This document shows, in pieces, positions 3,890 through 17,924 of a stretch of 21,262 nucleotides of DNA. The stretch is from an uncultured Clostridia bacterium (GTDB lineage: Bacteria; Bacillota; Clostridia; Oscillospirales; Ruminococcaceae): assembly GCA_947302065.1 (NCBI GenBank), contig CAMYUO010000004.1, forward strand, positions 1 to 21,262, given 5' to 3'. Position 1 is the stretch's first letter. Each line of letters begins with the position of its first letter. The notes beneath the pieces were generated by a model. That model was not told the origin of the DNA and did not search any database. It worked only from the letters and a program-made list of their open reading frames with translations. The position numbers and the translations under genes are program-made.

Positions 3890-5245
3890 GTGGCTATAGA
3901 CAAGAAATTATATAAAAAGCTGTTTTCGATAGTTGCGCCGATAGCGTTCCAATATCTGACGGCGTCGCTGGTCACGGCGAGCGATGCGTTCATGCTTGGA
4001 TTTCTCGATCAGGATTCGCTTTCGGCATCGTCCCTTGCTGGACAGGTGCCGTTTGTTTTTAGCCTGTTTTTCGGGTCGTTCGTGTTCGGACTGACGGTGC
4101 TGGCGGCACAATACTGGGGAAAAGGCGACAAAAGATCGGTCGGGGAGATACTTGCGATAACGATGCGATACTGCCTGCTGGTGGGTGCGGTGTTCACGCT
4201 GGCGTGTCTTATCTGCCCGAGGCTGATAATGCATATTTTCACATCGGACGATGCGCTGATAACGGAGGGTGCGAAGTATCTGAGAATGGTATCGCCGCAG
4301 TTCCTGCTCAGCGGTTTCACGCAGGCATACTACGGCATAATGAAAGTCTGCGACAGGGCAAAGCTAAGCTCGGTCATCGGATCGGCATCGGTGTTTGTGA
4401 ACATCGGGCTGAACGCACTGCTCATTTTCGGTGTGTGGATATTCCCGAGAATGGGCATAAGAGGTGCGGCGCTGGCGACAGACCTTGCGAGAGTGTTTGA
4501 AACGGTCGTTGTCATCATCGTGGTGGCAAAGGGCAAATGCCCGAAGCTGAACATAAAGCAAATGTTTAAAACGCAGACAAAATTTCTGCACAAGGACTAC
4601 TGGAAATACTCGCTGCCGCTGCTTTTCAATCAGCTTGGCTGGGGCGGCGGAGTGACGATGTACTCGGTGATAATGGGACATCTCGGCAGCGACGCTGTTG
4701 CGGCGAACTCGATAGCGAGCATAGTGCGTTCGATGATAGCGAGCTTCTGCTGGGGCATCGCAGCAGGTGTGGGCATCATTCTCGGTATGATGCTCGGCAA
4801 GGGCGAGCTTGAAAAGGCAAAGAAAGCAGGCGGCAGCTTTGTGCGTGCATCGCTTGTGATAGGCGTTTTGTCGGGCGTTGTGATACTTGCGCTGACACCG
4901 ATAGTGCTTGGCGTGATAAAGCTTGAGCCGACGGCACAGCATTATCTGAAATACATGATGCTGTTTGCGGCGTATTACATAATTGGCAATTCGCTGAACT
5001 CAACGGTCATCGGCGGCATTTTCCCGTCGGGCGGTGATACCAAGTTCGGTATGATATGCGACAGCGTGACGATGTGGGCGGTGATACTCCCGATAGGTTT
5101 CTTCTGCGCATTCGTTCTCAAACTGCCTGTGCTGGTGGTCGCAGTGATACTCACGCTGGACGAATTTGTCAAGATACCGTGGGTATACAAGCATTATATG
5201 AAATACAAATGGGTGAAGAACATCACAAAGGAAAACAGCGAATAA
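3890..5245 (+). CDS. MATE family efflux transporter
   Basis: This 451-residue integral membrane protein is of the multidrug and toxic compound extrusion family, with about 12 membrane helices arranged as two six-helix bundles. It probably exports cationic drugs or metabolites in exchange for Na+ or H+. Family features include the N-terminal KLYKKLFSIVAPIAFQYL, the first-helix region ending in SDAFMLGFLD, GLTVLAAQYWGKGD, and in the second half LPLLFNQLGWGGGVTMYSVI. Length is normal for the family. The start is GTG at 3890, with AAGGGGAG (3878-3885) just upstream and no better ATG nearby. The gene is monocistronic, between its own promoter and a clear terminator. Substrate cannot be read from sequence. 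Confidence 0.92.
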   Translation: MAIDKKLYKKLFSIVAPIAFQYLTASLVTASDAFMLGFLDQDSLSASSLAGQVPFVFSLFFGSFVFGLTVLAAQYWGKGDKRSVGEILAITMRYCLLVGAVFTLACLICPRLIMHIFTSDDALITEGAKYLRMVSPQFLLSGFTQAYYGIMKVCDRAKLSSVIGSASVFVNIGLNALLIFGVWIFPRMGIRGAALATDLARVFETVVVIIVVAKGKCPKLNIKQMFKTQTKFLHKDYWKYSLPLLFNQLGWGGGVTMYSVIMGHLGSDAVAANSIASIVRSMIASFCWGIAAGVGIILGMMLGKGELEKAKKAGGSFVRASLVIGVLSGVVILALTPIVLGVIKLEPTAQHYLKYMMLFAAYYIIGNSLNSTVIGGIFPSGGDTKFGMICDSVTMWAVILPIGFFCAFVLKLPVLVVAVILTLDEFVKIPWVYKHYMKYKWVKNITKENSE

Positions 5246-5421: not shown

Positions 5422-7713
5422 ATGAAAAAGAAAATACTTGCTGCGGCGCTTGCGGTCTGCATGACATTCGGCTCTGCGGCTGCGCTGCCGAGGACGGTTT
5501 TTGATGATGTCGGCGGCATAACGGTCAGTGCACAAACTGTAGACAGCGATTTTACTACCGGTACTCTTGAAGACGGCACGCTGGCGATAACCGGTTACAA
5601 AGGAAATGGCGGCACGGTCGTTGTTCCGTCGGAGATAGGCGGAAAGAAAGTAACAAGGATACAGGGCACGGCTTTTGACGGTGATTATAAAAAATTTGAA
5701 AGCCCGACAAAGATGATCATCTCAGAGGGCATCAAGTTCATCGACGTCAGTGCGATCTGTGGCTGCGATAAGCTCGAAAGCGTGGACCTGCCGAGCTCGA
5801 TCGAAGATATAGAGATCCTGAATTTTATAAAGTGCAGCAAACTCAAAGAAATAAATGTTGCCAAGGGCTGCGAGAATTACTGCTCTGTAGACGGTGTGCT
5901 TTACACCAAGGATTATGAGTGGCTGCAGGTTTGCCCTCAGGCAAAAACAAGCATAACGATACCCGGCGGTGTCGAGTACATCTGCACTTATGCATTCTGG
6001 CACAGTCCGATGACGAGTGTGACGCTGCCGGAGAGCCTTGAGCAGATCGGCGCACGTGCATTCAAAGGCAGCAGGATAAAAAGCCTGCATATCCCCGGAA
6101 AAGTCACATATATCAGCTGGGACGCTTTTGATGAATGTGAAAACTTTGAAGGTTTGACTGTTGACAGCAGCAATGGAAGATTCAGTGCTGATGACGGCGT
6201 GCTGTATAGTAAGGATAAGACCAAGATCGTACGGTGTCCGGGCAAAAAGAAAAGCCTGACGCTGCCAAACACGGTCAGAACTATCGGAGAGTTTGCATTT
6301 ACACAAACCGAGATAGAAAGCATGATCCTGCCCGACAGCGTTACAAGCATAGAAAGATGGGCGTTTGATCAGTGCAGTGCCATCAAAAGCGTGACGCTTT
6401 CAAATAATATAATAAACATAGATCATTCTGCGTTCAGCAGATGTGATAGCCTTAAGAAGATAACTATCCCCGCCGGCGTCAAGACCGTTGGTGAGTCTAT
6501 GTTTTATGGGTGTACGAGCCTTGAAAGTGTAAATATAGGATACGGCGTTGAAAAGATAGAAAAGGAAGCCTTTTTTCACTGTACGGCGCTCAAAAGCGTG
6601 AAGATACCGTCGAGCGTGACGTCAATAGGCACTCATGCGCTCGGATATTACGATGCTGCCCCGAACAGTTCTACTAAATATGAGAAGGTCAGCGGCTTTA
6701 CTATCTGCGGCGTGAAAGGCTCGGCGGCTGAAAAGTATGCAAAAGAAGAGGGCTTCGCATTTGAGGATATTTACCGCCCTGTGCGGCTTGCAGGCAGAAA
6801 CAGATACGAAACTGCGGCTGTTATCTCACATAACACGAAAAACAGATCGACCGCTGTCATACTTGCAAGCGGTGAGGGATACGCTGATGCGCTGGCAGGC
6901 GTGCCGCTGGCAAAATATATCGGCTCACCGGTACTGCTGACGCCAAAGAACAGCCTCAGCAAAGATGCGCTTGCGGAGATAAAGCAGAGAGAAGCAAAGA
7001 AAGTCATTATCCTCGGCGGCGAGGGCGCTGTCAGCAAAAATGTTGAGAACGCACTGAAAAAAGAGGGACTCAAGACCGTTCGCCTTGCGGGCAGCAACCG
7101 TTACGGCACAGCAGTTGAGATAGCAAAGAATATGGACGACGAACCGAAAGAGGTGTTCTTTGTGAGTGCAGGCGGATTTGCCGATGCACTTTCCGCAGGT
7201 GCGGCGGCGGCTCTGAAAAGTGCGCCGATGATCTATCTCGGCAAGGACGGCGACCTTAATGCTGATTCAAAGGCGTATCTTGACCAGCTCGGAAAGAAAG
7301 GCTGTGTCAAGAAAGCGTACGTTATCGGCGGCACGGGCGTTATCAGCGATGCGATGATGAAAAAAGCCGCATCGGCTCTCGGTCTGAAAGCGGGAACGAC
7401 TGTGCAGCGTATCGCAGGCAGCGACAGATTTGAAACCTGTCTTGCTGTAAACAAGACATTCAAGAGTCTGTTCACAGGCAGGATGATATGCGTTTCAACG
7501 GGACTCGATTTCCCCGATGCACTGGCAGGCGGCTTTTACGCTGCGGAAAACAAGGCGTTTATGCTGCTGGTGGGTAATACGCCGGGCGCTGATCAGAGAT
7601 CTTTCCTTTCGGGCAGGAACAACTACTCGATGACAGTATTCGGCGGCACGGGTGCGGTCAATGAAGGACTGCTTACACAGATCAGCAACGCAAGGTACGA
7701 GACAAAGAAATAA
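5422..7713 (+). CDS. Secreted BspA-type LRR protein with three CWB2 wall-binding repeats (copy 1)
   Basis: This 763-residue surface protein opens with a signal peptide (MKKK, then a hydrophobic stretch to about residue 22; likely cleavage after ITVSA, residue 37). LRR_5/BspA-type repeats run from about 60 to 410, with recurring units of the form (S/T)LPxSVxxIxxxAFxxCxxLxS. Two inserted DGVLYxKD segments occur near 158 and 258. Three CWB2 repeats follow, starting at RLAGRNRYETA (455), RLAGSNRYGTA (554) and RIAGSDRFETC (663). CWB2 domains anchor clostridial proteins non-covalently to cell wall polymers, and BspA-type LRRs usually mediate binding to proteins or host surfaces, so the likely role is adhesion or surface display. 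GGAGGC sits five bases before the ATG. Its paralogue follows after 56 bases. The bound ligand is unknown. Confidence 0.92.
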   Translation: MKKKILAAALAVCMTFGSAAALPRTVFDDVGGITVSAQTVDSDFTTGTLEDGTLAITGYKGNGGTVVVPSEIGGKKVTRIQGTAFDGDYKKFESPTKMIISEGIKFIDVSAICGCDKLESVDLPSSIEDIEILNFIKCSKLKEINVAKGCENYCSVDGVLYTKDYEWLQVCPQAKTSITIPGGVEYICTYAFWHSPMTSVTLPESLEQIGARAFKGSRIKSLHIPGKVTYISWDAFDECENFEGLTVDSSNGRFSADDGVLYSKDKTKIVRCPGKKKSLTLPNTVRTIGEFAFTQTEIESMILPDSVTSIERWAFDQCSAIKSVTLSNNIINIDHSAFSRCDSLKKITIPAGVKTVGESMFYGCTSLESVNIGYGVEKIEKEAFFHCTALKSVKIPSSVTSIGTHALGYYDAAPNSSTKYEKVSGFTICGVKGSAAEKYAKEEGFAFEDIYRPVRLAGRNRYETAAVISHNTKNRSTAVILASGEGYADALAGVPLAKYIGSPVLLTPKNSLSKDALAEIKQREAKKVIILGGEGAVSKNVENALKKEGLKTVRLAGSNRYGTAVEIAKNMDDEPKEVFFVSAGGFADALSAGAAAALKSAPMIYLGKDGDLNADSKAYLDQLGKKGCVKKAYVIGGTGVISDAMMKKAASALGLKAGTTVQRIAGSDRFETCLAVNKTFKSLFTGRMICVSTGLDFPDALAGGFYAAENKAFMLLVGNTPGADQRSFLSGRNNYSMTVFGGTGAVNEGLLTQISNARYETKK

Positions 7714-7720
7714 GATGAAG

Positions 7721-7738
7721 ATGCCGATCAAACGGCAT
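7721..7738 (+). other. Small intercistronic hairpin between the two LRR-CWB2 genes
   Basis: ATGCCG (7721-7726) pairs with CGGCAT (7733-7738) around a six-base loop. No T-run follows, so it should not terminate strongly. It may stabilise the upstream mRNA or be incidental. Confidence 0.4.
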
Positions 7739-7769
7739 GCGGAAACGTATATATGGAGGCAAATGGTAT

Positions 7770-10049
7770 ATGAAAAAGAAAATACTTGCGGCGGCTCTTG
7801 CCGTTTGTATGTCTTTCGGTATGGCGGCAGCGCTGCCAAGGGCAGTTTTTGATGATGTCGGCGGAATTTCGGCGAGTGCGGACAGCAGCGGACTTTATAC
7901 GCAGACTCTCGAGGACGGCACGCTGGAGATAACCGGTTACAGAGGCAAGGGCGGTACGGTCACTGTTCCGTCGGAAATAGCCGGAAAGAAAGTAACGAGG
8001 ATCGGACAGTCGGCATTCGACTGCGGATTGTATGACTATACAGTCAGCCCGACAAAGATAATCGTTTCAGAGGGCATCACGCATATCGGTCAGTATGCGT
8101 TTTACGGCTGCGACAAGCTCGAAAGCGTGGAACTGCCAAAATCACTGAGTCATATGGATAACGCTGTTTTTCACGGGTGCGTTAAGCTGAAAGAGATCAA
8201 CGTCACTGCGGGCGGACTGTCTTACTGCTCCAAAGACGGCGTGCTTTACACCAAGGATTATAAGGAACTGGTGCATTGCCCTCAGACAAAGACAAGCATA
8301 ACGATACCTGACGGAGTCGAATACATCGGTCTTATGGCATTTGAGTCAAGTCAGATAACGAGCGTGAAGATACCCGACACAGTTACGGTGATAAAGGGAT
8401 ATGCTTTTCAATACAGCAGGCTCAAAAGCGTGAATATACCTAAAAACACCGAATTCCTCGGTTCTAAAGTATTTTATGACTGCGAGGACCTTGAAAGTAT
8501 AACTGTTGACAGCAGCAATGAGGATTTCAGTGCTGCTGACGGCGTGCTGTATAATAAGAAAAAGACCACCCTGATACAGTGCCCGACAAAAAAGAAAAGC
8601 CTGAGAGTTCCGGACACAGTCAGAATTATCAGTGAAGATGCGTTCGGAAGCTGCAAAATTGAAAGCGTGGTCTTGCCTGACAGCATTACTAAGATAGAGC
8701 GGTATGCGTTTACCGAATGCAAAAATCTCAAAAGCGTGAAGCTCTCAAGAAACATCACGGACGTGGGCGAGTATGCGTTCATGAACTGCAGCGGTCTTAC
8801 GAGCGTAAGTATCCCGGGCGGAGCCGTTGGTCCCGGAATGTTTATGCACTGTGAAAATCTTTCAAGCGTGAATATAGGATACGGCGCTTCACTGATAAAA
8901 GATGCTGCGTTTTACTTTTGCCCGAAGATCAAAAGCGTGACTATCCCGTCGAGCGTTAAGTCGATAGGTCAATATGCGTTCGGTTATTACAATACTGACC
9001 AGCAGGATATAATCGTAAAGCGTGACGATAAGGTCAGCGGATTCACTATCTGCGGCGTAAAGGGCACGGCGGCTGAAAAGTATGCAAAGGACAACGGCTT
9101 CAAGTTTGTAGCAGTGCCCGACGTCAAGCGCCTTGCAGGCAGCAACCGATATGACACGGCTGCGGTCATCGCACAGAATATGCTCAACAGGTCGAGCGCA
9201 GTTATTCTTGCAAGCGGTGAGGGATACGCTGATGCGCTGGCAGGTGTGCCGCTGGCAAAATATCTCGGCGCACCGATACTGCTGACGCCGAAAAACAGCC
9301 TCAGTCAAGAGGCTCTCGCTGAGATAAAGCGCAGGGGAGCGTCAAAGGTCATTATCCTCGGCGGAGAGGGCGCTGTCAGCAAAAATGTTGAGAGCGCACT
9401 GCAAAAAGAGAAACTCAAGACCATTCGTCTTGCGGGCAGCAGCCGTTACGGCACGGCAGTCGAGATAGCAAAGAATATGGACTACAAGCCGACAGAGGTG
9501 TTCTTTGCCTGCGCAGGAGGATTTGCAGATGCGCTTTCCGCAGGTGCGGCGGCGGCTCTGAAAAGTGCGCCGATAATCTATCTCGGTAAGGACGGCGAGC
9601 TTAATGCAGAGACAAAGGCTTATCTTGAACAGCTCAAAAAGAAAAACTGCGTAAAGCAGGCGTATGTCATCGGCGGCACCGGCGTTATCAGCGACGGCAT
9701 GATGAACAAGGCGGCTTCGGCTCTCGGTCTGAAATCGGGAACGACAGTAAAGCGCATCTGCGGCGCAAACAGATATGAGACCTGTCTTGCGGTGAACAAT
9801 ACTTTCAATAGTCTTTTCACAGGAAAGGAGATATGCGTTTCGACGGGACGCAATTTCCCCGATGCGCTGGCAGGCGGCGTTTATGCGGCAGAGAAAAAGG
9901 CATTCATGTTGCTGGCAGATGGAGCAGTGAGCGCAAATCAGCAGACATTCCTTACAAAGAATAAGGGCAGTCAGGTAACGGCGTTCGGCGGAAACGGCGC
10001 TGTGAGCGATTCGCTGCTCGGCAGTATTGCCAAGCTGGCAGGCAAGTAG
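7770..10049 (+). CDS. Secreted BspA-type LRR protein with three CWB2 wall-binding repeats (copy 2)
   Basis: This 759-residue paralogue of the preceding gene has the same plan: a signal peptide with nearly the same start (MKKKILAAALAVCM) and likely cleavage after ISASA (residue 37), LRR_5 repeats at about 60-405, and CWB2 repeats starting at RLAGSNRYDTA (454), RLAGSSRYGTA (553) and RICGANRYETC (662). The wall-binding half is closer between the copies than the LRR half, which suggests a shared anchor with diverged ligand specificity. An open ATG at 7737 lies upstream in frame, but the stretch between contains the ribosome site GGAGGC (7755-7760). The ATG at 7770 reproduces the start of copy 1 and is therefore used. 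There is no separate promoter or terminator in the 56-base gap, so the two genes are probably co-transcribed. Confidence 0.92.
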   Translation: MKKKILAAALAVCMSFGMAAALPRAVFDDVGGISASADSSGLYTQTLEDGTLEITGYRGKGGTVTVPSEIAGKKVTRIGQSAFDCGLYDYTVSPTKIIVSEGITHIGQYAFYGCDKLESVELPKSLSHMDNAVFHGCVKLKEINVTAGGLSYCSKDGVLYTKDYKELVHCPQTKTSITIPDGVEYIGLMAFESSQITSVKIPDTVTVIKGYAFQYSRLKSVNIPKNTEFLGSKVFYDCEDLESITVDSSNEDFSAADGVLYNKKKTTLIQCPTKKKSLRVPDTVRIISEDAFGSCKIESVVLPDSITKIERYAFTECKNLKSVKLSRNITDVGEYAFMNCSGLTSVSIPGGAVGPGMFMHCENLSSVNIGYGASLIKDAAFYFCPKIKSVTIPSSVKSIGQYAFGYYNTDQQDIIVKRDDKVSGFTICGVKGTAAEKYAKDNGFKFVAVPDVKRLAGSNRYDTAAVIAQNMLNRSSAVILASGEGYADALAGVPLAKYLGAPILLTPKNSLSQEALAEIKRRGASKVIILGGEGAVSKNVESALQKEKLKTIRLAGSSRYGTAVEIAKNMDYKPTEVFFACAGGFADALSAGAAAALKSAPIIYLGKDGELNAETKAYLEQLKKKNCVKQAYVIGGTGVISDGMMNKAASALGLKSGTTVKRICGANRYETCLAVNNTFNSLFTGKEICVSTGRNFPDALAGGVYAAEKKAFMLLADGAVSANQQTFLTKNKGSQVTAFGGNGAVSDSLLGSIAKLAGK

Positions 10050-10141: not shown

Positions 10142-10170
10142 TTGACTTTAAGCAATAAATCTGTTATTAT
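10142..10170 (+). promoter_or_regulatory. Extended -10 promoter of the MATE-GHKL operon
   Basis: -35 TTGACT (10142-10147), 17-base spacer, -10 TATTAT (10165-10170) preceded by TGT, an extended -10 motif. Expected start is near 10177, giving a leader of about 48 bases before the ATG at 10225. Confidence 0.7.
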
Positions 10171-10224: not shown

Positions 10225-11973
10225 ATGATAAAAAGGCTTTTTAAACAGATGCTGCTGACACAGATACTCTCGTCGATGACGGTGACGCTGTGTATGCTCA
10301 TCGACAGTATGATGATAGGACGTTTCCTCGGTGTTGACGCAATGACCGCTTACGGACTCGCCTCGCCTGTGCTGTTGGTATTTGCGGCGCTGGGCTGTCT
10401 GGTCTCGGCAGGCGTTCAGGTAATGTGCGGAAAAACTATGGGCAGCGGCGACAAGGAGGGCACGAATGCGTGCTTTACGATGTCGGTCGTGCTGTGGGCA
10501 GGCATCTCGGTGGTCGGACTTATCGCTGTGCTTTGTTTCACAGACCCGATATGTACGCTGCTCGGTGCAGGTGAGCCGGGACCGAACAACCCCGTTTTCG
10601 ACCTGACAAAAGACTATCTGCGAGGCTTTATAATCGGTGCGCCTGCGTTCCTTGCGGCGCAGATAATGGTGCCGTATATGCAGATATCGGGCAGCAGGGT
10701 AAGGCTCGTTGTGGCTGTTGCGATGATGACGGTCGGTGATATCCTGTTTGATATACTCAACGTTACGGTGATAAAGCAGGGCACTTTCGGAATGGGTCTT
10801 GCATCGAGTGTAAGCTACTACATCGCATTCCTCATAGGTCTTGTATATTTCTTCAAGAAAAACTGTATTTTCAAGTTCAGATTCAAAACGATAAAGGCAA
10901 AGGTCTGCGCACATCTGCTGGTCGACGGCGTGCCGACGCTGATAAACCAGCTGAGTCTGGTATTTCTGACGCTGGTAATAAACCAGATACTGCTCAACGT
11001 CAGCGGAAACCACGCTGTTGCGGCATATTCTGTTATCTCGTCGGCGGGAAATATCTGTTATGCGTTCTCGTCGGGAATCGCCGCTGTTGCGCTTACGCTT
11101 TCGTCGATACTTTACAGCGACGGCGACAAGAAAGCGCTCAAAGACCTCGTAAAGATAATGTGCTTCTACGCTGTGATAATATGCTCGGCGGTAACGGCTA
11201 TCGTGCTTGCGGCTGCAACGCCGATGGTAACGGTGTTCCTGACAGACCTTGACGCAAAGGACATGGCGGTCAGCGGACTGAGGCTGTTCGTGCTGTCGCT
11301 CGTGCCGTGTGCGCTCAACACGAGCTTCAAGAACTACTATCAGGGCATCGACAGGGTCAAGCTGACGATGGTTATATCGGTGTTCCAGAACTTCCTGCTT
11401 ACTGCGCTGGCTGCGCTGCTGCTGAGCATGCTGTTCGGCGTGACGGGCGTATGGCTCGGATTCGTATGCGGCGAGGTGCTGACGCTGATAAGCATTTGTA
11501 TAATGGTATTCGTGCGCAACAAGAAAGCCAAATTCAGTGCGGATAGCTTTGCTCTGCTCTCGGACAGGTTCGGTGAGGAGCTTGAGGACTGCTATGAATA
11601 CTCGATAACAAATCCGGAGGAGGTCGTTATCGTTTCGCAGGAGGCATCTGATTTCTGCACCAAGCACGGACAGAGCACCAAGATAAGCTCGATGCTCGCA
11701 CTTTGCATTGAGGAAATGGCGAACAACATTGTGCATTACGGTTTCAAGGGCAAAAAGGAACACAGTATAGATGTCAGGGTAATGATAATGAACGGCTCGC
11801 CCGTTCTGCGTATCAGAGACAACTGCGCAGGATTTGACCCTGTTAAGTTCGTGGAGATGCACGAGGACGAGAACCCTATCTCGCACATCGGCATAAGAAT
11901 GGTAATGAAACTCGTAAAAGACGCAAACTACGTCAACTCGCTGGGACTCAACAACCTGACGCTGACGCTGTAA
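10225..11973 (+). CDS. MATE transporter fused to an RsbW/SpoIIAB-like GHKL ATPase domain
   Basis: This 582-residue protein has two parts. Residues 1-435 are a complete MATE-type transporter with about 12 hydrophobic helices (LTQILSSMTVTLCMLIDSMMIGRFLG at the start in the family manner, SGSRVRL near 155). Residues about 445-582 are a cytoplasmic GHKL/HATPase domain of the anti-sigma-factor kind. They contain an N-box in LALCIEEMANNIVHYGF (E496, N500), a G1-like RIRDNCAGFDP (D532, G536) and a G2-like HIGIRMVMKLV (G556). Family MATE proteins are about 450 residues with no such tail. The likely idea is a membrane exporter regulated by, or reporting through, partner switching with STAS proteins. 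A TTG at 10201 is in frame, but AAAGGA (10212-10217) seven bases before the ATG at 10225 decides the start. The oxidoreductase gene follows after 18 bases. Kinase activity and transport substrate are unknown. Confidence 0.88.
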   Translation: MIKRLFKQMLLTQILSSMTVTLCMLIDSMMIGRFLGVDAMTAYGLASPVLLVFAALGCLVSAGVQVMCGKTMGSGDKEGTNACFTMSVVLWAGISVVGLIAVLCFTDPICTLLGAGEPGPNNPVFDLTKDYLRGFIIGAPAFLAAQIMVPYMQISGSRVRLVVAVAMMTVGDILFDILNVTVIKQGTFGMGLASSVSYYIAFLIGLVYFFKKNCIFKFRFKTIKAKVCAHLLVDGVPTLINQLSLVFLTLVINQILLNVSGNHAVAAYSVISSAGNICYAFSSGIAAVALTLSSILYSDGDKKALKDLVKIMCFYAVIICSAVTAIVLAAATPMVTVFLTDLDAKDMAVSGLRLFVLSLVPCALNTSFKNYYQGIDRVKLTMVISVFQNFLLTALAALLLSMLFGVTGVWLGFVCGEVLTLISICIMVFVRNKKAKFSADSFALLSDRFGEELEDCYEYSITNPEEVVIVSQEASDFCTKHGQSTKISSMLALCIEEMANNIVHYGFKGKKEHSIDVRVMIMNGSPVLRIRDNCAGFDPVKFVEMHEDENPISHIGIRMVMKLVKDANYVNSLGLNNLTLTL

Positions 11974-11991: not shown

Positions 11992-12561
11992 ATGGAGATA
12001 CTTTACATCAATTGTGCGGTGCGAAGCGCTTCGAGAACACGAAAGCTTGCCCGGCACCTGCTTGAAAAGCTCGACGGGAACGTTGCCGAGGTGCGCCCGA
12101 ACGAGCTCGGGCTGCCCGTGACGGACGAGGAGCTTATAGACCGCCGCAGCAGGCTGAGTGCGGCAGGCGACTTTTCGGATAAGTATTTTGCGCCGGCAGT
12201 ACAGTTTGCACAGGCGGATATCATCGTGATAGCTGCGCCTTACTGGGACTTGTCTTTCCCTGCGGCGTTAAAGGCGTATTTTGAGCATATAAACATACTC
12301 GGACTGACGTTTGCATACACGCCCGAGGGTGAGCCTGTCGGGCTTTGCAGGGCGAAAAAGTTGTTTTATGTCACGACGGCAGGCGGAAAGATATACTCCG
12401 ACGAATACGGGTTCGGCTATGTAAAGGCGCTGGCGCAGACGTTTTACGGCATAAGCGAGGTAAAATGCTTTGCGGCGCAGGAGCTGGACATCATTGGCAA
12501 TGACCCCGAGGACATTCTTGCGCAGGCAAAAATACAGATAGATGACTATTTCGGAAAATGA
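11992..12561 (+). CDS. Flavodoxin-fold NAD(P)H-dependent oxidoreductase (AzoR/MdaB-like)
   Basis: This 189-residue protein is of the flavodoxin_2/NQO-like family, which reduces quinones, azo compounds or similar electrophiles with NAD(P)H through FMN. The N-terminal strand MEILYINCAV leads into a phosphate-loop-like RSASRTRKLA (11-20). The family hallmark APYWDLSFPAALKAYFEHI lies at 82-100, and YVTTAGG (126-132) is the second flavin loop. Length is typical. The protein has no signal peptide and should be cytoplasmic. It starts 18 bases after the MATE-GHKL stop, with GGGAG (11980-11984) seven bases before the ATG, so it is probably in the same operon. Pairing an exporter with a reductase of this type suggests detoxification of an electrophilic compound, but that is inference. 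Confidence 0.88.
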   Translation: MEILYINCAVRSASRTRKLARHLLEKLDGNVAEVRPNELGLPVTDEELIDRRSRLSAAGDFSDKYFAPAVQFAQADIIVIAAPYWDLSFPAALKAYFEHINILGLTFAYTPEGEPVGLCRAKKLFYVTTAGGKIYSDEYGFGYVKALAQTFYGISEVKCFAAQELDIIGNDPEDILAQAKIQIDDYFGK

Positions 12562-12574
12562 CAGATAATATGGG

Positions 12575-12606
12575 GACTGCTGCATACAAGCGGCAGTCTT
12601 TTTTTT
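12575..12606 (+). terminator. Rho-independent terminator after the oxidoreductase gene
   Basis: The eight-base-pair stem GACTGCTG (12575-12582) / CGGCAGTC (12591-12598) contains one G-U pair and has an eight-base loop. Eight T's (12599-12606) follow. It ends the MATE-GHKL operon 14 bases after the stop codon. Confidence 0.92.
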
Positions 12607-12626: not shown

Positions 12627-12655
12627 TTGACAGACTTTGATGAATGTGCTATACT
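12627..12655 (+). promoter_or_regulatory. Strong extended -10 promoter of the partner-switching operon
   Basis: Perfect -35 TTGACA (12627-12632), 17-base spacer, -10 TATACT (12650-12655) preceded by TGC, an extended -10. Expected start is near 12662, leaving an unusually long leader of about 116 bases before the ATG at 12778. The match is to the housekeeping sigma-A consensus, with no sign of a sigma-B/F-type -10. Confidence 0.85.
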
Positions 12656-12777: not shown

Positions 12778-13074
12778 ATGACAGTTAACAAGAATCTGAA
12801 GGCAGATGCTCTGTCAGTAGCAGTTGAGGGAAGGATAGACACAACTACCGCTCCCGAGCTTGAAAAGGAGATAAAGGACTCACTTGGCGGCGTAAAGAAG
12901 CTGGTGCTCGATTTTGAAAAGGTGGAGTACATCTCATCGGCAGGACTCAGAGTGCTGCTTTCCACCCAGAAGATAATGAACAAGCAGGGTGAGATGAAGC
13001 TTATCAATGTAAGCTCCGATATAATGGAGATATTTGAGGTGACAGGTTTTTCCGATATTCTTACCATCGCCTGA
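12778..13074 (+). CDS. STAS-domain anti-anti-sigma factor
   Basis: This 98-residue single-domain STAS protein is of the RsbV/SpoIIAA type. The family binds an RsbW-like ATPase when unphosphorylated and is switched off by serine phosphorylation. It has the expected succession: strand ALSVAVEGRID, the DTTTAPELEKEI helix, strand KLVLDFEKVEYI, then the phosphorylation-site motif YISSAGLRVLL with its conserved serine pair at about 55-56. An in-frame TTG at 12688 would add 30 unrelated residues with no ribosome site, whereas the ATG at 12778 has GAAAGGAAG (12762-12770) seven bases upstream and gives a normal family length. It is the first gene of a three-gene operon, with the ATPase 18 bases downstream. 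Confidence 0.93.
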   Translation: MTVNKNLKADALSVAVEGRIDTTTAPELEKEIKDSLGGVKKLVLDFEKVEYISSAGLRVLLSTQKIMNKQGEMKLINVSSDIMEIFEVTGFSDILTIA

Positions 13075-13092: not shown

Positions 13093-13503
13093 ATGAAGGA
13101 GCTTGATATAGTTGCAAAAACCGAAAATCTCGATGCAGTGACGGATTTTGTAAATGAGCAGCTCGAGGCAGCGGGCTGCCCGATGAAGATATTGATGCAG
13201 ATAGACCTCGCTGTTGAGGAGATATTTGTAAATATCGCTAACTATGCATACTCGCCCGAGGAGGGACCTGCAACGGTGAGGGTGCAGACGGACAGCGAGA
13301 AAAGCACTGTCGATATCACTTTCATAGACCACGGTGTGCCTTACGATCCGCTTGCAAAGCAGGACCCCGACGTTACCCTCAGCGCAGAGCAGAGAGCTAT
13401 CGGCGGACTGGGTATATTTATGGTGAAAAAGAGCATGGACGACGTAACATATGAGTACCGTGACGGTCACAACATATTGACGATCAAAAAAGGCATTGCC
13501 TGA
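13093..13503 (+). CDS. RsbW-like anti-sigma factor / serine kinase ATPase
   Basis: This 136-residue GHKL ATPase is of the RsbW/SpoIIAB class, which can bind and inhibit a sigma factor or another partner and phosphorylate the cognate STAS protein. The N-box lies in IDLAVEEIFVNIANYAY (E43, N47), G1 in FIDHGVPYDP (D79, G81) and G2 in AIGGLGIFMV (G104-G107). All key positions for Mg-ATP are present. The ribosome site GGAGGT is just upstream of the ATG. It sits 18 bases after the STAS gene and 16 bases before the phosphatase gene. No sigma factor gene is adjacent, so the target is encoded elsewhere or is not a sigma factor. Confidence 0.92.
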   Translation: MKELDIVAKTENLDAVTDFVNEQLEAAGCPMKILMQIDLAVEEIFVNIANYAYSPEEGPATVRVQTDSEKSTVDITFIDHGVPYDPLAKQDPDVTLSAEQRAIGGLGIFMVKKSMDDVTYEYRDGHNILTIKKGIA

Positions 13504-13519: not shown

Positions 13520-15055
13520 ATGAAGATTCAGGATCAGATGCAGTCATTTTTCCTGCGGAACAAATGGGTGCTGCCTCTGTGTTTCCTAACGTCAGCGACG
13601 CTGACGGTCATGGGCATAGCAATTTGCCTTGCCAGAGGTTTTTCGGATCTGCAAAATACCTTTACATTCAGCGTCGGTGCAGATGTTTTCTCGATGCTGG
13701 TGTGTACGGTGCTGCTTTACAGCTGTATACAGGATAAAGAGGGTGCGAGTATGCATACACGCACCTTTGTTCTGCTTATAATGATGACAAACTGCGTGCT
13801 GTTTTCGGATCTCTGCTGCTGGATGCTGCAGGGCGAGGCAGCGCTGAGAACGCTGGTGCTTGTGGTCAACGTGTTCAGCTTTACGAATGCGGCGTGCCTG
13901 CTGTACTGCTTCTGGCAGTATGTGTTCAACTCGCTGAACCTCAAGGAAAACCGGATAATGCGGGGCTGCGATCTGGTGCTCAACATACTTATGGTGCCGA
14001 CGATCATAGCGTGCCTGTTGAACTTTGTTTATCCGCTGTATTTCAGGGTAAGCCACACGGGCGAATATCACAGAGAGCCTGCGTTCATGTGGAGCCAGAC
14101 GTATCTTGCGATAGGACTTGTTTTCGTGATGATAGGCTTTTTCTTGTCAAAGGTGCCGATGAGGGAGCGTATAGTGACGATGTCGTTCGTACTTATCCCG
14201 ATCGCCAACCAGCTGCTGACAAGGTACAAGTTCGGACTGACCACGCAGTATGCGGCGATGACGGTATCTATCGTGCTGATATATGCAAGGGTCTTTGCAC
14301 AGAGACAGAAAAGGCTCGCATCAACACAGAAAGAGCTTTCGATGGCGTCGGGCATTCAGGCTGCGATGCTGCCGAGCGATTTCCCTGCGTTCCCCGACAG
14401 AAACGATTTTGACATTTATGCGTCCATGACACCGGCAAAAGAGGTCGGCGGCGACTTTTACGACTTTTTCCTGATAGATGACGACCATCTTGCGATGGTG
14501 ATTGCCGATGTGTCGGGAAAGGGCGTGCCTGCGGCACTTTTTATGATGATGTCAAGGATCATGATAAAGAATTTCGCAATGATGGGCTATTCGCCGGCGG
14601 ATCTGCTCGAACAGACCAACACGGCGATTTGTATGAACAACACCAAGGATATGTTCGTGACGGTGTGGTACGGCGTTATGGAGATATCGACGGGCAAGGT
14701 GACGGCTGCGAATGCGGGTCACGAATACCCGATAGTGCGCAAAGCGAACGGCAGCTTTGAGCTGATGCGTGACAAGCACGGCTTTGTGCTCGGCGGAATG
14801 GAGGATATGACATACCGTCAGTATGATTTCGAGCTTGAAAAGGGCGCAGCGCTGTTCCTTTACACAGACGGTGTTGCAGAGGCGACAGATGCGGAAAACA
14901 GGATGTTCGGCGTGGACAGGATGCTCGCAGCGCTCAACGCTGATGCGTCTGCGCCCCCGAAAAAGCTCATCGAGAACATGAAAAGCGAGGTAGACCGCTT
15001 TGTCGGCGACGCTGACCAGTTCGACGATCTCACGATGCTGGCAGTTTCACGATAG
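13520..15055 (+). CDS. Membrane-anchored SpoIIE/RsbU-type PP2C serine phosphatase
   Basis: In this 511-residue protein residues about 15-262 form seven or eight membrane helices. A short linker (QRQKRLASTQKELSMASGIQ, likely helical) leads to a PP2C phosphatase of the SpoIIE/RsbU family at about 280-511. Metal-binding motifs are complete: EVGGDFYD (D312), ADVSGKG (D330), YTDG (D450) and DDLTM (D503). It should dephosphorylate the STAS protein two genes upstream, freeing it to capture the RsbW-like ATPase. The multi-helix N-terminus has no recognisable extracellular sensor domain and may sense within the membrane. The ribosome site CGGAGGT is close to the ATG. This is the last gene of the operon before a strong terminator. 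Confidence 0.93.
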   Translation: MKIQDQMQSFFLRNKWVLPLCFLTSATLTVMGIAICLARGFSDLQNTFTFSVGADVFSMLVCTVLLYSCIQDKEGASMHTRTFVLLIMMTNCVLFSDLCCWMLQGEAALRTLVLVVNVFSFTNAACLLYCFWQYVFNSLNLKENRIMRGCDLVLNILMVPTIIACLLNFVYPLYFRVSHTGEYHREPAFMWSQTYLAIGLVFVMIGFFLSKVPMRERIVTMSFVLIPIANQLLTRYKFGLTTQYAAMTVSIVLIYARVFAQRQKRLASTQKELSMASGIQAAMLPSDFPAFPDRNDFDIYASMTPAKEVGGDFYDFFLIDDDHLAMVIADVSGKGVPAALFMMMSRIMIKNFAMMGYSPADLLEQTNTAICMNNTKDMFVTVWYGVMEISTGKVTAANAGHEYPIVRKANGSFELMRDKHGFVLGGMEDMTYRQYDFELEKGAALFLYTDGVAEATDAENRMFGVDRMLAALNADASAPPKKLIENMKSEVDRFVGDADQFDDLTMLAVSR

Positions 15056-15281: not shown

Positions 15282-17891
15282 GTGTTTACTTGGAATTTTC
15301 AATATATCTCAAAGGCAAGACTTGCCGAGACGTTCGGTCAGCTGAGGCTGAGCGCCGAGCAGGGCGATATACTTGTGCGCATACATACGGCGATACACGC
15401 TGAGGACGAGGCTGTTGACCTGGCTCGCTTTATCGCAAAACTCGTGCCGGGAGCACATATTTTCGGAACGAGCACATCGGCGGTCATTGCATGGGGCAGG
15501 CTGATACAGAACCAGTGCGTCATATCGGTCACACAGATGTCAAAGGGCAGGGTAAAAACTGCGCTTTTGCCGACGTTTGACGAGGGCGGCAATATGCTGG
15601 CAGTTGATGAGCTTTGCCAGAGCGTCAAAGACGCTGTTATCAGCGAGGACACAAAGCTGATGCTGACGTTCCTGACGGGAAAGTATCTCGATGTTTACAG
15701 CTTTGTTGAGCGCTGCAACGACTTTTTCCCCGGCGTGCAGATGATAGGCGGACTTGCCAATACGTCGGAGATAAATCTCAAAAAGTTTCTTGATTCGGGC
15801 TTTGTTTTCAACGAGAACGGCTGGAGCAGCAAAGGCATCGTGCTTGCGGCGATAAGCGGCAGCGAGGTGGAGAGCTACAGCTCGTATGCAACAGGCGTTG
15901 AGGTCATAGGTAAAGAGCGTGAGATAACCGATACGTTCGGAACGTGCATACTTACGATGGACGGAAAGGACGCAGCGAGCGAATACCGTGTGGGCATAGG
16001 CGACGAGCTGAAAACACGTCCGGAGCTGACAAATCTTTTCCCTTTCGTTTATTCGCAGACGAGCGATATTCCGATAATGGTGCGCTTTTCCGACGATATG
16101 AGCATAGAGGATATGTTCCCCGCAGATAACGAGCTCAACGAGCAGGCATACAGCGCACACGCAGGACTCGATACAGCCTCCAAGCGTGAGATGATAAATG
16201 CAAATCACAACGTTCAGGCGGGCAAAAAGCTCAAAAGAGCGTTTATTTACGACGGAAAGATAATTGCGGACAACCGTAAGCTGTTTCGGCATATCGAGAA
16301 CTTTGAAAAAGCGGAAACTATTTTCGGATATTCCTGCATCGCACGTTCGATGATATATTCAAACTGCGTAAAATGGGAGCTTTCAGCCTATGAGAACTCT
16401 AATATCTGCGGCTGTATCACCGAGGGCGAGATAGCTCACGTTGACGGAAAGAACACGTTTGCGAACTGCTCGTTCGTGGTGTCGGTCATCGGTGAAGAGC
16501 CTGCAACGCAGATGTACAACCCATATGCTTTTTCGCATACCGACTCGCTGGCAGCGGACAACAGAGAGCTGCTTGCGTATCTGTATGATGTGGAGAACAA
16601 GCTGGTGAGCAGCGATCGTTATGTTGCGGCGGAGAGTCTTAAAAAGTTCGTAAGAGACTGCGAGCTGAAGCTGCTTTATTCGCAGACGGACGATATGCCG
16701 AATGCTGCGGCGCTGAACATGGACGTCAGGCTAAAAGGATATGACCGCTTGTGCGTGATAAACGTGTTCGATATGTCGAGCATAAGAACGGTTTTTTCTA
16801 GCCAGCTGATCGACCTGACATATAAAAATTACATATCAAAGTGCGTGAGCTTTGCAAAAGCGCACAAGTATGCGATATATCATATAAAGGACTGGATGGT
16901 GGCTGTGGCTGCGCCGTCGGATATGGTCGCACTTTCCGAGTTCATCGAGGATATGAAGCAGCTGCAAAAGGCTCTGTTTGCGGTGTCGGAGGAGTGCATC
17001 GCCATTGTTCCGATATTCAGCATCATAGACAACTGCTCTGACCGCAGCAGTTTTTCTGTCTACTATTCGACGCTTCTGGAAATGAAGCAGAAAAATATAC
17101 AGTTCTATGTGCGTGACGCAAAGAAGGGTCAGCTCGACGAGGACAGTATCCGTGAGCGTTACCATATGGTGAACGTGATAAACTACGCTATCGCAAACGA
17201 CAAGGTGATACCGTATTTTCAGGGCATTTACGACAACAAGGAAAAGTGCATAAACCACTATGAGTCGCTGATGCGCCTTGAGGACGAAAACGGCAAGGTG
17301 TATTATCCTGCCAGCTTCCTTGATGTTGCGAGAAGCTACGGTCTGCTCTACGACTCTATCTCGCAAAAGATGATAAGCAGGGTCTTTGAGCGTTTCAAGG
17401 ACGTTGTCGGCAAGAGCGTGAGCATTAATCTTGAAATAAGAGATATCAAAAACCGGGAGCTTACGGATTTTATCTATGAGTTCCTTTCAACTGCAGAACA
17501 CCCTGAGAATTTCGTCTTTGAGATACTTGAAAACGAGGATATTGACGATTATGACACGCTTATAGCTTTCGTTGACAGGATACACGACCTCGGCGGTCTT
17601 ATCTCTATCGACGATTTCGGCAGCGGCTTTTCAAATCTGCAGCATATCGCAAGCATACGCTGCGATTATCTGAAAATAGACGGCTCTATCGTAAAAAACT
17701 GCTGCGAGGACGAACAGCTTGCAAACATCATCGCACTCGTTGCAGACTGGAAACGCCTGAGCAATAAGACATTCAGCATCATTGCCGAGTTCGTGGAGAA
17801 TGAGGATATACAATCACTGCTGATGAAATTCGGGATAGACTATTCACAGGGCTATCTTTTCGCAAAACCCGAGCCTGAGATAGAGGGCTGA
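15282..17891 (+). CDS. FIST sensor - degenerate GGDEF - EAL c-di-GMP phosphodiesterase
   Basis: This 869-residue cytoplasmic protein has a FIST sensory module in two parts (about 25-230 and 230-400; GTSTSAVI at 62-69, MIGGLAN at 154-160). A region at about 435-615 looks like a GGDEF fold whose signature has decayed to IKDWM. An EAL domain occupies about 625-866. The EAL domain keeps the catalytic set: ESLMRL with E661 (ESL instead of EAL), N716, E747, D777-D778 in IDDFGSG, K798 in LKID, E836 and Q856 in QGYLF. It should therefore hydrolyse c-di-GMP to pGpG. FIST domains are thought to bind small molecules such as amino acids. The start is GTG at 15282, with GAGGAGGGC (15266-15274) upstream. 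It is the first gene of the operon, 33 bases before the cyclase gene. Confidence 0.9.
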   Translation: MFTWNFQYISKARLAETFGQLRLSAEQGDILVRIHTAIHAEDEAVDLARFIAKLVPGAHIFGTSTSAVIAWGRLIQNQCVISVTQMSKGRVKTALLPTFDEGGNMLAVDELCQSVKDAVISEDTKLMLTFLTGKYLDVYSFVERCNDFFPGVQMIGGLANTSEINLKKFLDSGFVFNENGWSSKGIVLAAISGSEVESYSSYATGVEVIGKEREITDTFGTCILTMDGKDAASEYRVGIGDELKTRPELTNLFPFVYSQTSDIPIMVRFSDDMSIEDMFPADNELNEQAYSAHAGLDTASKREMINANHNVQAGKKLKRAFIYDGKIIADNRKLFRHIENFEKAETIFGYSCIARSMIYSNCVKWELSAYENSNICGCITEGEIAHVDGKNTFANCSFVVSVIGEEPATQMYNPYAFSHTDSLAADNRELLAYLYDVENKLVSSDRYVAAESLKKFVRDCELKLLYSQTDDMPNAAALNMDVRLKGYDRLCVINVFDMSSIRTVFSSQLIDLTYKNYISKCVSFAKAHKYAIYHIKDWMVAVAAPSDMVALSEFIEDMKQLQKALFAVSEECIAIVPIFSIIDNCSDRSSFSVYYSTLLEMKQKNIQFYVRDAKKGQLDEDSIRERYHMVNVINYAIANDKVIPYFQGIYDNKEKCINHYESLMRLEDENGKVYYPASFLDVARSYGLLYDSISQKMISRVFERFKDVVGKSVSINLEIRDIKNRELTDFIYEFLSTAEHPENFVFEILENEDIDDYDTLIAFVDRIHDLGGLISIDDFGSGFSNLQHIASIRCDYLKIDGSIVKNCCEDEQLANIIALVADWKRLSNKTFSIIAEFVENEDIQSLLMKFGIDYSQGYLFAKPEPEIEG

Positions 17892-17924
17892 CGGGCAGCT
17901 TAGTATCATTCGGAGGTCTTGCAG

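Follow-up and report, generated by a model that had tools for sequence, protein, structure and literature searches.

The window analysed here is the whole stretch of 21,262 nucleotides from an uncultured Clostridia bacterium. It holds a gene that joins a MATE exporter to a domain of the kind found in partner-switch kinases, and partner-switch genes follow downstream. The features on which our argument draws are these.

10142-10170, plus strand: promoter-like site TTGACT-17-TATTAT, with TG ahead of the second hexamer, 5' of the fusion gene (consensus match only, 10/12)
10225-11973, plus strand: fusion gene, MATE plus GHKL tail, an open frame of 582 aa
10225-11514, plus strand: MATE transporter domain, residues 1-430 (Pfam MatE 1.8e-30; solved relatives DinF-BH and PfMATE)
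11515-11589, plus strand: short linker, residues 431-455, from the MATE helices to the first GHKL strand in the model
11590-11970, plus strand: RsbW/SpoIIAB-type GHKL tail, residues 456-582 (HATPase_c_2 2.4e-11; fold match SpoIIAB/RsbW/UsfX)
11713-11727, plus strand: N-box of the tail, E497-x3-N501
11818-11841, plus strand: G1 box D532-N-C534-A-G-F-D-P539, Cys534 in the glycine's place (C534 in 115/115 homologues)
11884-11892, plus strand: G2 box H554-I-G556, His in the first glycine's place (H554 in 113/115)
11992-12561, plus strand: flavodoxin-fold NAD(P)H/FMN reductase-like gene, 18 bp 3' of the fusion (Flavodoxin_2 9e-26)
12572-12601, plus strand: intrinsic-terminator-like stem (12 pairs) and T run, 3' of the reductase gene
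12627-12655, plus strand: promoter-like site TTGACA-17-TATACT, 5' of the switch genes (consensus match only, 11/12)
12778-13074, plus strand: stand-alone STAS protein of the anti-anti-sigma type, with a Ser-Ser-Ala-Gly motif (STAS 9e-17; TIGR00377 above cut-off)
13093-13503, plus strand: stand-alone RsbW-type kinase with complete N, G1 and G2 motifs (HATPase_c_2 1.2e-24)
13520-15055, plus strand: SpoIIE/RsbU-type PP2C phosphatase, C-terminal domain (SpoIIE 1.7e-52)

The exporter and its RsbW/SpoIIAB-type tail read as one open frame of 582 residues. Pfam places MatE (1.8e-30, in two stretches; PF01554 scores 106 bits against a cut-off of 24.9) and HATPase_c_2 (2.4e-11, residues 463-581) above their curated cut-offs, and a sub-threshold Polysacc_synt is the sole other Pfam match of the fusion. 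TIGR00797 reaches 129 bits, below its 147.4 cut-off, and the NCBIfam RsbW models give no match to the fusion. An AlphaFold2 model (pLDDT 85.6, pTM 0.84) shows the MATE helices and a GHKL sandwich within one chain. The exporter part has the MatE domain, two repeats and fold of a MATE protein of the MOP superfamily, its closest solved relatives being DinF-BH (BH2163) and PfMATE, with PfMATE/DinF among the top Foldseek matches; the tail has the Bergerat fold together with the HATPase_c_2 profile, and its top Foldseek matches are SpoIIAB and RsbW. Profiles and model thus identify a MATE-superfamily exporter with a C-terminal GHKL domain of the RsbW/SpoIIAB kind. The first-pass annotation had read a full-length MATE and a GHKL-class tail in one frame, and had proposed structure prediction as a check on the GHKL fold; both the reading and the fold are confirmed. 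Two acids of the MATE part, D27 and D176, presumably membrane residues of the ion-coupling type, align with acids of DinF-BH and are both kept in 15/15 near members. In distant members D27 is kept in 14/17 and 5/9 and D176 in 7/17 and 5/9, a variability which implies that transport itself may be altered in some of them.

A frameshift or an assembly chimera was rejected, since 245 proteins match residues 430-582 and, among the 120 matches listed, nearly all carry both domains and are about 580 aa long. At the level of the order, the tail gave matches at E 0.001 in 45 of 295 genomes, many of them other GHKL proteins, and across the phylum its profile matched in 31 of 398. Twenty places from the order survey, picked by frame length and not by neighbours, hold the fusion in 18 cases; this sample comprises nearly all distant matches with 583-641-codon frames and a few others, nine near-type matches being left out. 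Eleven places from the phylum survey, also picked by frame length (574-638 codons), gave nine MATE-GHKL fusions in eight genomes and two SpoIIE-GHKL proteins. Close relatives are represented by the best 80 of 271 loci, found with search patterns that included the G1 motif; the record titles of many of these loci name the rumen or other gut sites. Named isolates that carry the fusion are Ruminococcus sp. FC2018 (L025) and Qiania dongpingensis (P0181, Lachnospiraceae). When trees are built from the MATE part only, with fused proteins making up 45 of 78 rows or, after eight rows were added and seven removed, 47 of 79, a single branch (support values 90 and 91, unstarred) has all sampled fused proteins to the same side of it, which makes a single origin of the fusion likely, if not proven. 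A family of free-standing tails was considered and rejected: 53 short matches were taken as gene fragments, most of them on contigs of at most a few kb, not each being checked, while P0125 and P0144 lie on contigs of 16.7 and 13.2 kb. In the parts of the literature that our search for the fusion or near terms covered, we found no description of a MATE-GHKL protein.

Downstream of the fusion the window carries, in order, the flavodoxin-like reductase, the STAS gene, the stand-alone GHKL kinase and the SpoIIE phosphatase. The ATG of the STAS gene at 12778 lies 804 bases past the fusion stop, in agreement with the earlier estimate of about 0.8 kb, and from there to 15055 a STAS protein, a GHKL kinase and a SpoIIE-type phosphatase stand together, as in a partner switch. 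The N-terminal 256 aa of the phosphatase have no Pfam match, and an Rfam scan of the window at gathering scores gave none either. The terminator-like stem and the promoter-like site, both consensus matches, separate the unit of the fusion from the switch genes, so that two transcription units are likely here. The flavodoxin-like gene also adjoins the fusion in L015-L018 (synteny), and the set of fusion, flavodoxin-like gene, kinase and phosphatase recurs in L015-L017, where the STAS gene lies upstream. Elsewhere in the window, 5422-7713 and 7737-10049 encode two similar proteins in tandem, each of which combines leucine-rich repeats of the BspA type with three cell-wall-binding (CWB2) stretches. 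A second, unfused MATE gene (3890-5245) lies 5 kb upstream of the fusion and is distant from it in the tree. On the other side, 3' of the phosphatase gene, come a FIST and EAL protein (15282-17891) and next a protein that unites a binding-protein domain of the LacI type with GGDEF (17919-20114), so that c-di-GMP genes adjoin the switch in this window.

Is the tail still a kinase? We counted motifs in 115 full-length homologues, leaving out six shorter ones of 121. An active kinase of this class would have a complete N-box together with the G1 and G2 glycines; in the tail the N-box is fine within the near clade, the G1 glycine is Cys and the first G2 glycine is His. The N-box had been placed at E496 and N500, one residue off: position 496 is E in 112/115 homologues and position 500 is N in 91/115, and the conserved pair is E497 (113/115) and N501 (115/115). 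As for the G1-like motif, the proposed D532 holds (115/115) and G536 does not (G in 15/115), the position of the G1 glycine being that of Cys534, while the proposed G2-like G556 is invariant (115/115). Within the near clade, window included, E497, N501 and D532 are kept in 80/80 loci, a count that the scan patterns used to find these loci favour as regards the G1 motif. Fifteen near MATE tails keep the N-box Asn and have Cys for the G1 glycine in all cases; 30 MATE tails outside the near set keep the Asn in 9, having lost it in 21, and the G1 glycine in 12. The acid equivalent to E497 is kept in 44/45 MATE tails, even where the Asn is lost, and the tree implies at least two changes of the N-box Asn state among them. 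Mean pairwise identity in 35 rows is 59% for the tail against 63% for the MATE part, so that conservation of the tail falls little short of that of the transporter.

The other GHKL copies encoded in loci L015-L114 are largely intact. They keep the N-box Asn in 18/20 stand-alone, 16/16 SpoIIE-fused and 10/10 STAS-x-GHKL proteins, and the G1 glycine in 19/20, 16/16 and 10/10, respectively. The phosphorylatable serine, whose identity we take from SpoIIAA and RsbV, is present in 62 of 63 STAS domains of these loci, the remaining one being a gap. These intact copies and the kept serine suggest that the operons still run a phosphorylation switch, driven by the other kinase copies, and the contrast between intact neighbouring kinases and degenerate tails suggests a drift of the MATE tail towards binding. 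Over much of the family the tail looks like a pseudokinase. Among the window's close relatives nucleotide binding may still be possible, and even a working kinase is conceivable in the near clade, given that E497, N501 and D532 are kept. Of the RsbW-class ATPase originally proposed, therefore, the GHKL class stands by Pfam and Foldseek; an ordinary ATPase or kinase is not supported, given the replaced G1 glycine of the near tails and the N-box Asn lost in 21/30 others.

If the tail binds a partner, we may ask whether candidate partners are encoded nearby. Neighbouring genes for STAS, GHKL and SpoIIE proteins were marked on both strands by HMMs that we built from the proteins of the window itself; since at least one kinase gene (L102) escaped these HMMs, all such counts are lower bounds. 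Around close-clade fusions, within 500 bp, there are 35 switch genes in 79 kb, or 44 per 100 kb; the density falls to 1.5 per 100 kb at 5-7.5 kb, and at 7.5-10 kb there are none in 223 kb. Of the close-relative loci (the best 80 of 271), 36 have a gene for a STAS protein, a SpoIIE phosphatase or a separate kinase no farther than 3 kb away. In the order sample this is so for 14/18 fusion loci (12/16 with full flanks; 13/17 when L114 and L094, which are the same locus, are counted once), the exceptions being L095, L109, L110 and L113, and in the phylum sample for 7/9 within 3 kb and 9/9 within 4 kb (L151 and L155 added). Within 1 kb the counts are 27/68 for close-relative and 13/18 for order-sample loci, and in 31/98 fusion loci a switch gene on the same strand lies at most 60 bp from the fusion or overlaps it. 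As a control, 30 unfused MATE loci from 24 genomes with tail matches in the order survey, the window's own included, had a switch gene in 0/30, with a flank of 2.2-3.5 kb that is shorter than that of the fusion loci. The suspected link of the tail to STAS/PP2C genes is thus borne out far above background, with the control's shorter reach in mind. To the question raised in the first pass, whether such an operon is always nearby, the answer is no: where at least 3 kb is available on both sides, 24/50 close-relative loci have a switch gene within 3 kb and 26/50 have none.

Gene order varies among the linked loci: SpoIIE-GHKL, STAS, fusion in L068; STAS, SpoIIE, fusion in L088; kinase, STAS, fusion, SpoIIE in L106. 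Where linkage is lost the switch could act in trans, since a SpoIIE-domain match was present somewhere in 23/23 genomes of close-relative loci searched, which comprise 20 loci that lack a switch gene within 3 kb and three that have one (L019, L040, L055). The sporulation phosphatase will account for some of these matches, and the only match in G692 (L029) is a weaker one. In L049:572-9924 and L053:1-9852 a long row of same-strand genes precedes the fusion, and the L049 row includes a TerD/TerF-like protein.

From the motifs, the model and the neighbourhoods, by analogy with known switches, we consider it reasonably probable that the tail is a STAS-reading, perhaps non-catalytic domain and that the exporter is a direct output of partner switching. 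The tail would then be the exporter's receptor for a STAS protein. A SpoIIE-type phosphatase would keep the STAS protein dephosphorylated, in which state it would dock on the tail and alter transport; a separate RsbW-type kinase would phosphorylate it, whereupon it would release the tail. The direction of docking with respect to phosphorylation could be reversed, and the tail would need no phosphorylation activity of its own. Docking and release are modelled on established partner switching, and should docking change transport, the exporter would be a direct, non-transcriptional output of the switch. Both the step from gene linkage to binding and that from binding to control of transport are ones that we infer.

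Such an arrangement resembles known systems in part. The STAS protein, GHKL kinase and SpoIIE-type phosphatase occur together as in RsbV/RsbW/RsbU and SpoIIAA/SpoIIAB/SpoIIE of Bacillus, and the tail has the SpoIIAB/RsbW fold; unlike in the Bacillus RsbV/SpoIIAA switches, sigma genes are rare nearby and one GHKL copy is transporter-fused and degenerate. Non-sigma outputs and fusions of transporters to kinases or pseudokinases do exist, which gives precedents in HsbA-HsbD, CbrA and MviN. In HsbA-HsbD and SiaB/SiaC the anti-anti-sigma protein is of the STAS type, and its target is not known to carry a GHKL domain. The SiaB/SiaC structure PDB 6kko is among the structure matches of the tail. For HsbA-HsbD, PMC5085249 describes an anti-anti-sigma protein that itself binds to a membrane enzyme in a manner that depends on its phosphorylation state. 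Like HsbA-HsbD and SiaB/SiaC, the switch proposed here would have an anti-anti-sigma protein acting on a non-sigma target, which is a diguanylate cyclase there and would be a transporter here. MviN belongs to the MOP superfamily. Mycobacterial MviN carries a C-terminal Ser/Thr pseudokinase that recruits a regulator, its FHA partner, and does not catalyse (PMC12599244). The likeness is that of a membrane protein whose kinase-like domain serves recruitment over catalysis; unlike the eukaryotic-type pseudokinase of MviN, the domain here has the GHKL fold, and its partner would be a STAS protein. SLC26/SulP transporters also bear a partner-switch-type domain, which there is STAS (PMC8256260), whereas here it is the binding partner of STAS, the GHKL domain, that is fused.

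A second line of evidence comes from STAS domains fused to enzymes. Hand-picked neighbours of the distant fusions include enzymes that transfer acyl groups or make ester or amide bonds. NRPS genes occur in L104, where the available stretch has three condensation and three adenylation domains, and in L151, with adenylation, carrier and condensation domains. L101 and L155 have GH3 adenylases, L100 and L102 formyltransferases, L099, L105 and L107 LPG-synthase-C, and L099, L101, L105 and L149 GNATs. Neighbours otherwise include HD_4, PHP, MscS and Ter-type genes and others beside the GH3 adenylase, LPG synthase C, formyltransferase and GNAT kinds, and several of those picked by hand have no Pfam match. 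A single pathway was rejected as too narrow for so diverse a set of hand-picked neighbours, which gives no count. In L151:1355-2947, L153:4787-6391 and L156-L184 one protein combines STAS with a condensation domain of the NRPS type. With the fusion of L151 and L153 as the query, 189 genomes of G323's family gave 29 further places with both parts covered, or 31 genes with those of L151 and L153; all come from a single bacterial family and do not count as independent events. A MATE gene follows 3' in 29/31, directly in 20 (16 with a 4-base overlap) and behind one NRPS gene in 9. At L161 the contig ends inside the NRPS gene 3' of the STAS-condensation gene, and at L166 the contig ends after a 157-residue ORF and a shorter frame of the NRPS type, with no MATE seen. 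The contig end truncates the MATE of L171. Each of the remaining 28 carries a GHKL-type tail, found at E 2e-5 or better when 29 sequences were searched with sensitive settings; 3/28 of these tails have the N-box Asn and 25/28 have lost it. All 30 aligned STAS-condensation proteins have the STAS serine, and at least 95% of them have the condensation motif HxxxDG. Their MATE parts fall in two places in the tree, with a weakly supported separation, and no STAS-condensation gene was found in viral contigs. In L170-L175, L177 and L178, Ala and not Ser precedes the phospho-serine, and L161:3162-3935 is a 257-residue GHKL-type gene directly 5' of the STAS-condensation gene, unlike the rest of the set.

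The MATE gene behind 29 of the 31 genes, GHKL-tailed in the 28 complete cases, suggests the bolder idea that the enzyme may dock on the exporter. In 14 loci (L170-L182 and L184, some on short contigs) the STAS-condensation and MATE-GHKL genes are the sole switch-type genes in the available stretch, so that the enzyme would bear the STAS domain and the exporter the presumed socket for it. We therefore entertain, tentatively and with more doubt than confidence, the idea that STAS and GHKL domains may form a phosphorylation-gated plug and socket outside gene regulation, joining a small-molecule biosynthetic enzyme (STAS-condensation domain, NRPS modules) to its own exporter, MATE-GHKL, with synthesis and export coupled only as far as a phosphatase permits. 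The window's MATE-GHKL would then belong to the same exporter family, its plug being the free STAS protein. STAS-APH proteins speak against docking as the general role of STAS-enzyme fusions, since most lie away from MATE-GHKL genes: in a reverse search of 295 genomes, 33 long matches (at least 329 query residues) were found. Set against the tail matches of the order survey, 5 of them adjoin a MATE-GHKL gene (G042, G215, G129, G019, G043; judged from coordinates only for G019, G042 and G129), 2 are on the opposite strand at a distance of 3-4 kb (G076, G130) and 26 are not near. As exporter-docked enzymes the STAS-APH proteins were accordingly set aside as mostly negative. They do show an APH phosphotransferase-family domain built into a partner switch, in STAS-APH-HATPase_c_2 proteins of about 540 aa (L054:8370-10004, L058:3617-5227) and STAS-APH proteins of about 394 aa (L068:12341-13525, L108:2622-3803), all Pfam-tested. 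STAS-x-GHKL genes of equal length occur, by HMM only, in L066, L080, L089, L093 and L094, and the x is an APH domain in both copies that were Pfam-tested.

The strongest competitor to a STAS-reading tail runs the other way. The MATE part could sense a compound, transporting it or not, and set a tail that is a true, membrane-anchored STAS kinase, which would make the fusion the input of the switch. The conserved E497, N501 and D532 described above fit such a kinase, and so do the operons of L035 and L088, which have STAS and SpoIIE genes and no other GHKL gene called, so that the tail could be the kinase there (in L088 the last gene is cut by the contig end). Sensing fusions of a transporter to a kinase are known, CbrA among them (PMC13022988). 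The CbrA and CrbS transceptors (see also PMC7096432 and PMC5715377) have the order SLC5, STAC, histidine kinase, and like the present protein they are single chains with a transporter part and an ATPase domain of the GHKL class. Unlike them, our fusion has a MATE in place of SLC5, an RsbW-type domain without histidine phosphotransfer or STAC, and partner-switch neighbours; Pfam on the fusion finds none of SLC5, STAC and the histidine kinase core. Cys in place of the G1 glycine in all 15 near tails, the loss of the N-box Asn in 21/30 others, the intact separate kinase often encoded beside the fusion and a linkage of the parts by a short linker only all tell against it, and we regard a sensing role as unlikely. 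Of the two proposals, both inferred, a tail that gates transport via STAS appears more likely than a transporter that serves as sensor for the switch.

It is also imaginable that the link is genomic only, through co-transfer or co-regulation, and that the tail is a stabilising or dimerising module with no STAS binding. The partial linkage in the close clade and the two probable transcription units of the window agree with this. The association persists while gene order varies, however, the retained fold is the STAS-binding fold, and the STAS-condensation genes are nearly always followed by a GHKL-tailed MATE; we find such a purely genomic link quite improbable. That the tail is an anti-sigma factor at the membrane, holding a sigma factor whose gene lies elsewhere, is very improbable: although the closest solved relatives of the tail include anti-sigma factors and the window's genome has on another contig (L002; G000 contig C23) what we read as a SpoIIAA-SpoIIAB-SigF operon, the sporulation switch, in contrast to the fusion loci, only three sigma-like ORFs occur in the 100 loci L015-L114, at 1.3, 2.7 and 6.6 kb from the fusion, the one at 2.7 kb (L022) behind its own STAS and GHKL genes. 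The switch operons seen have no sigma gene inside, and no clear link to a sigma-factor output emerged, although an output encoded elsewhere is conceivable. An output through c-di-GMP was set aside; GGDEF/EAL genes near close-clade fusions are few, 4 within 1 kb (154 kb) and 4 at 6-10 kb (375 kb), and we claim no enrichment.

Thus, more generally, we return to the tail as a reader of STAS proteins. Partner switching is known mainly for freeing sigma factors, and the same parts here appear to act directly on a membrane exporter. With an exporter under direct control of a partner switch, bacteria may switch export on and off directly, and not only genes. If this is true, there would be a switch of export without transcription in a family that occurs in many Clostridia, animal guts being the source of a good share of these, and a GHKL pseudokinase family with a testable partner. 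The STAS-condensation and MATE-GHKL pairs, for their part, would point to uncharacterised natural-product clusters and perhaps to a physical link from a biosynthetic enzyme to its exporter.
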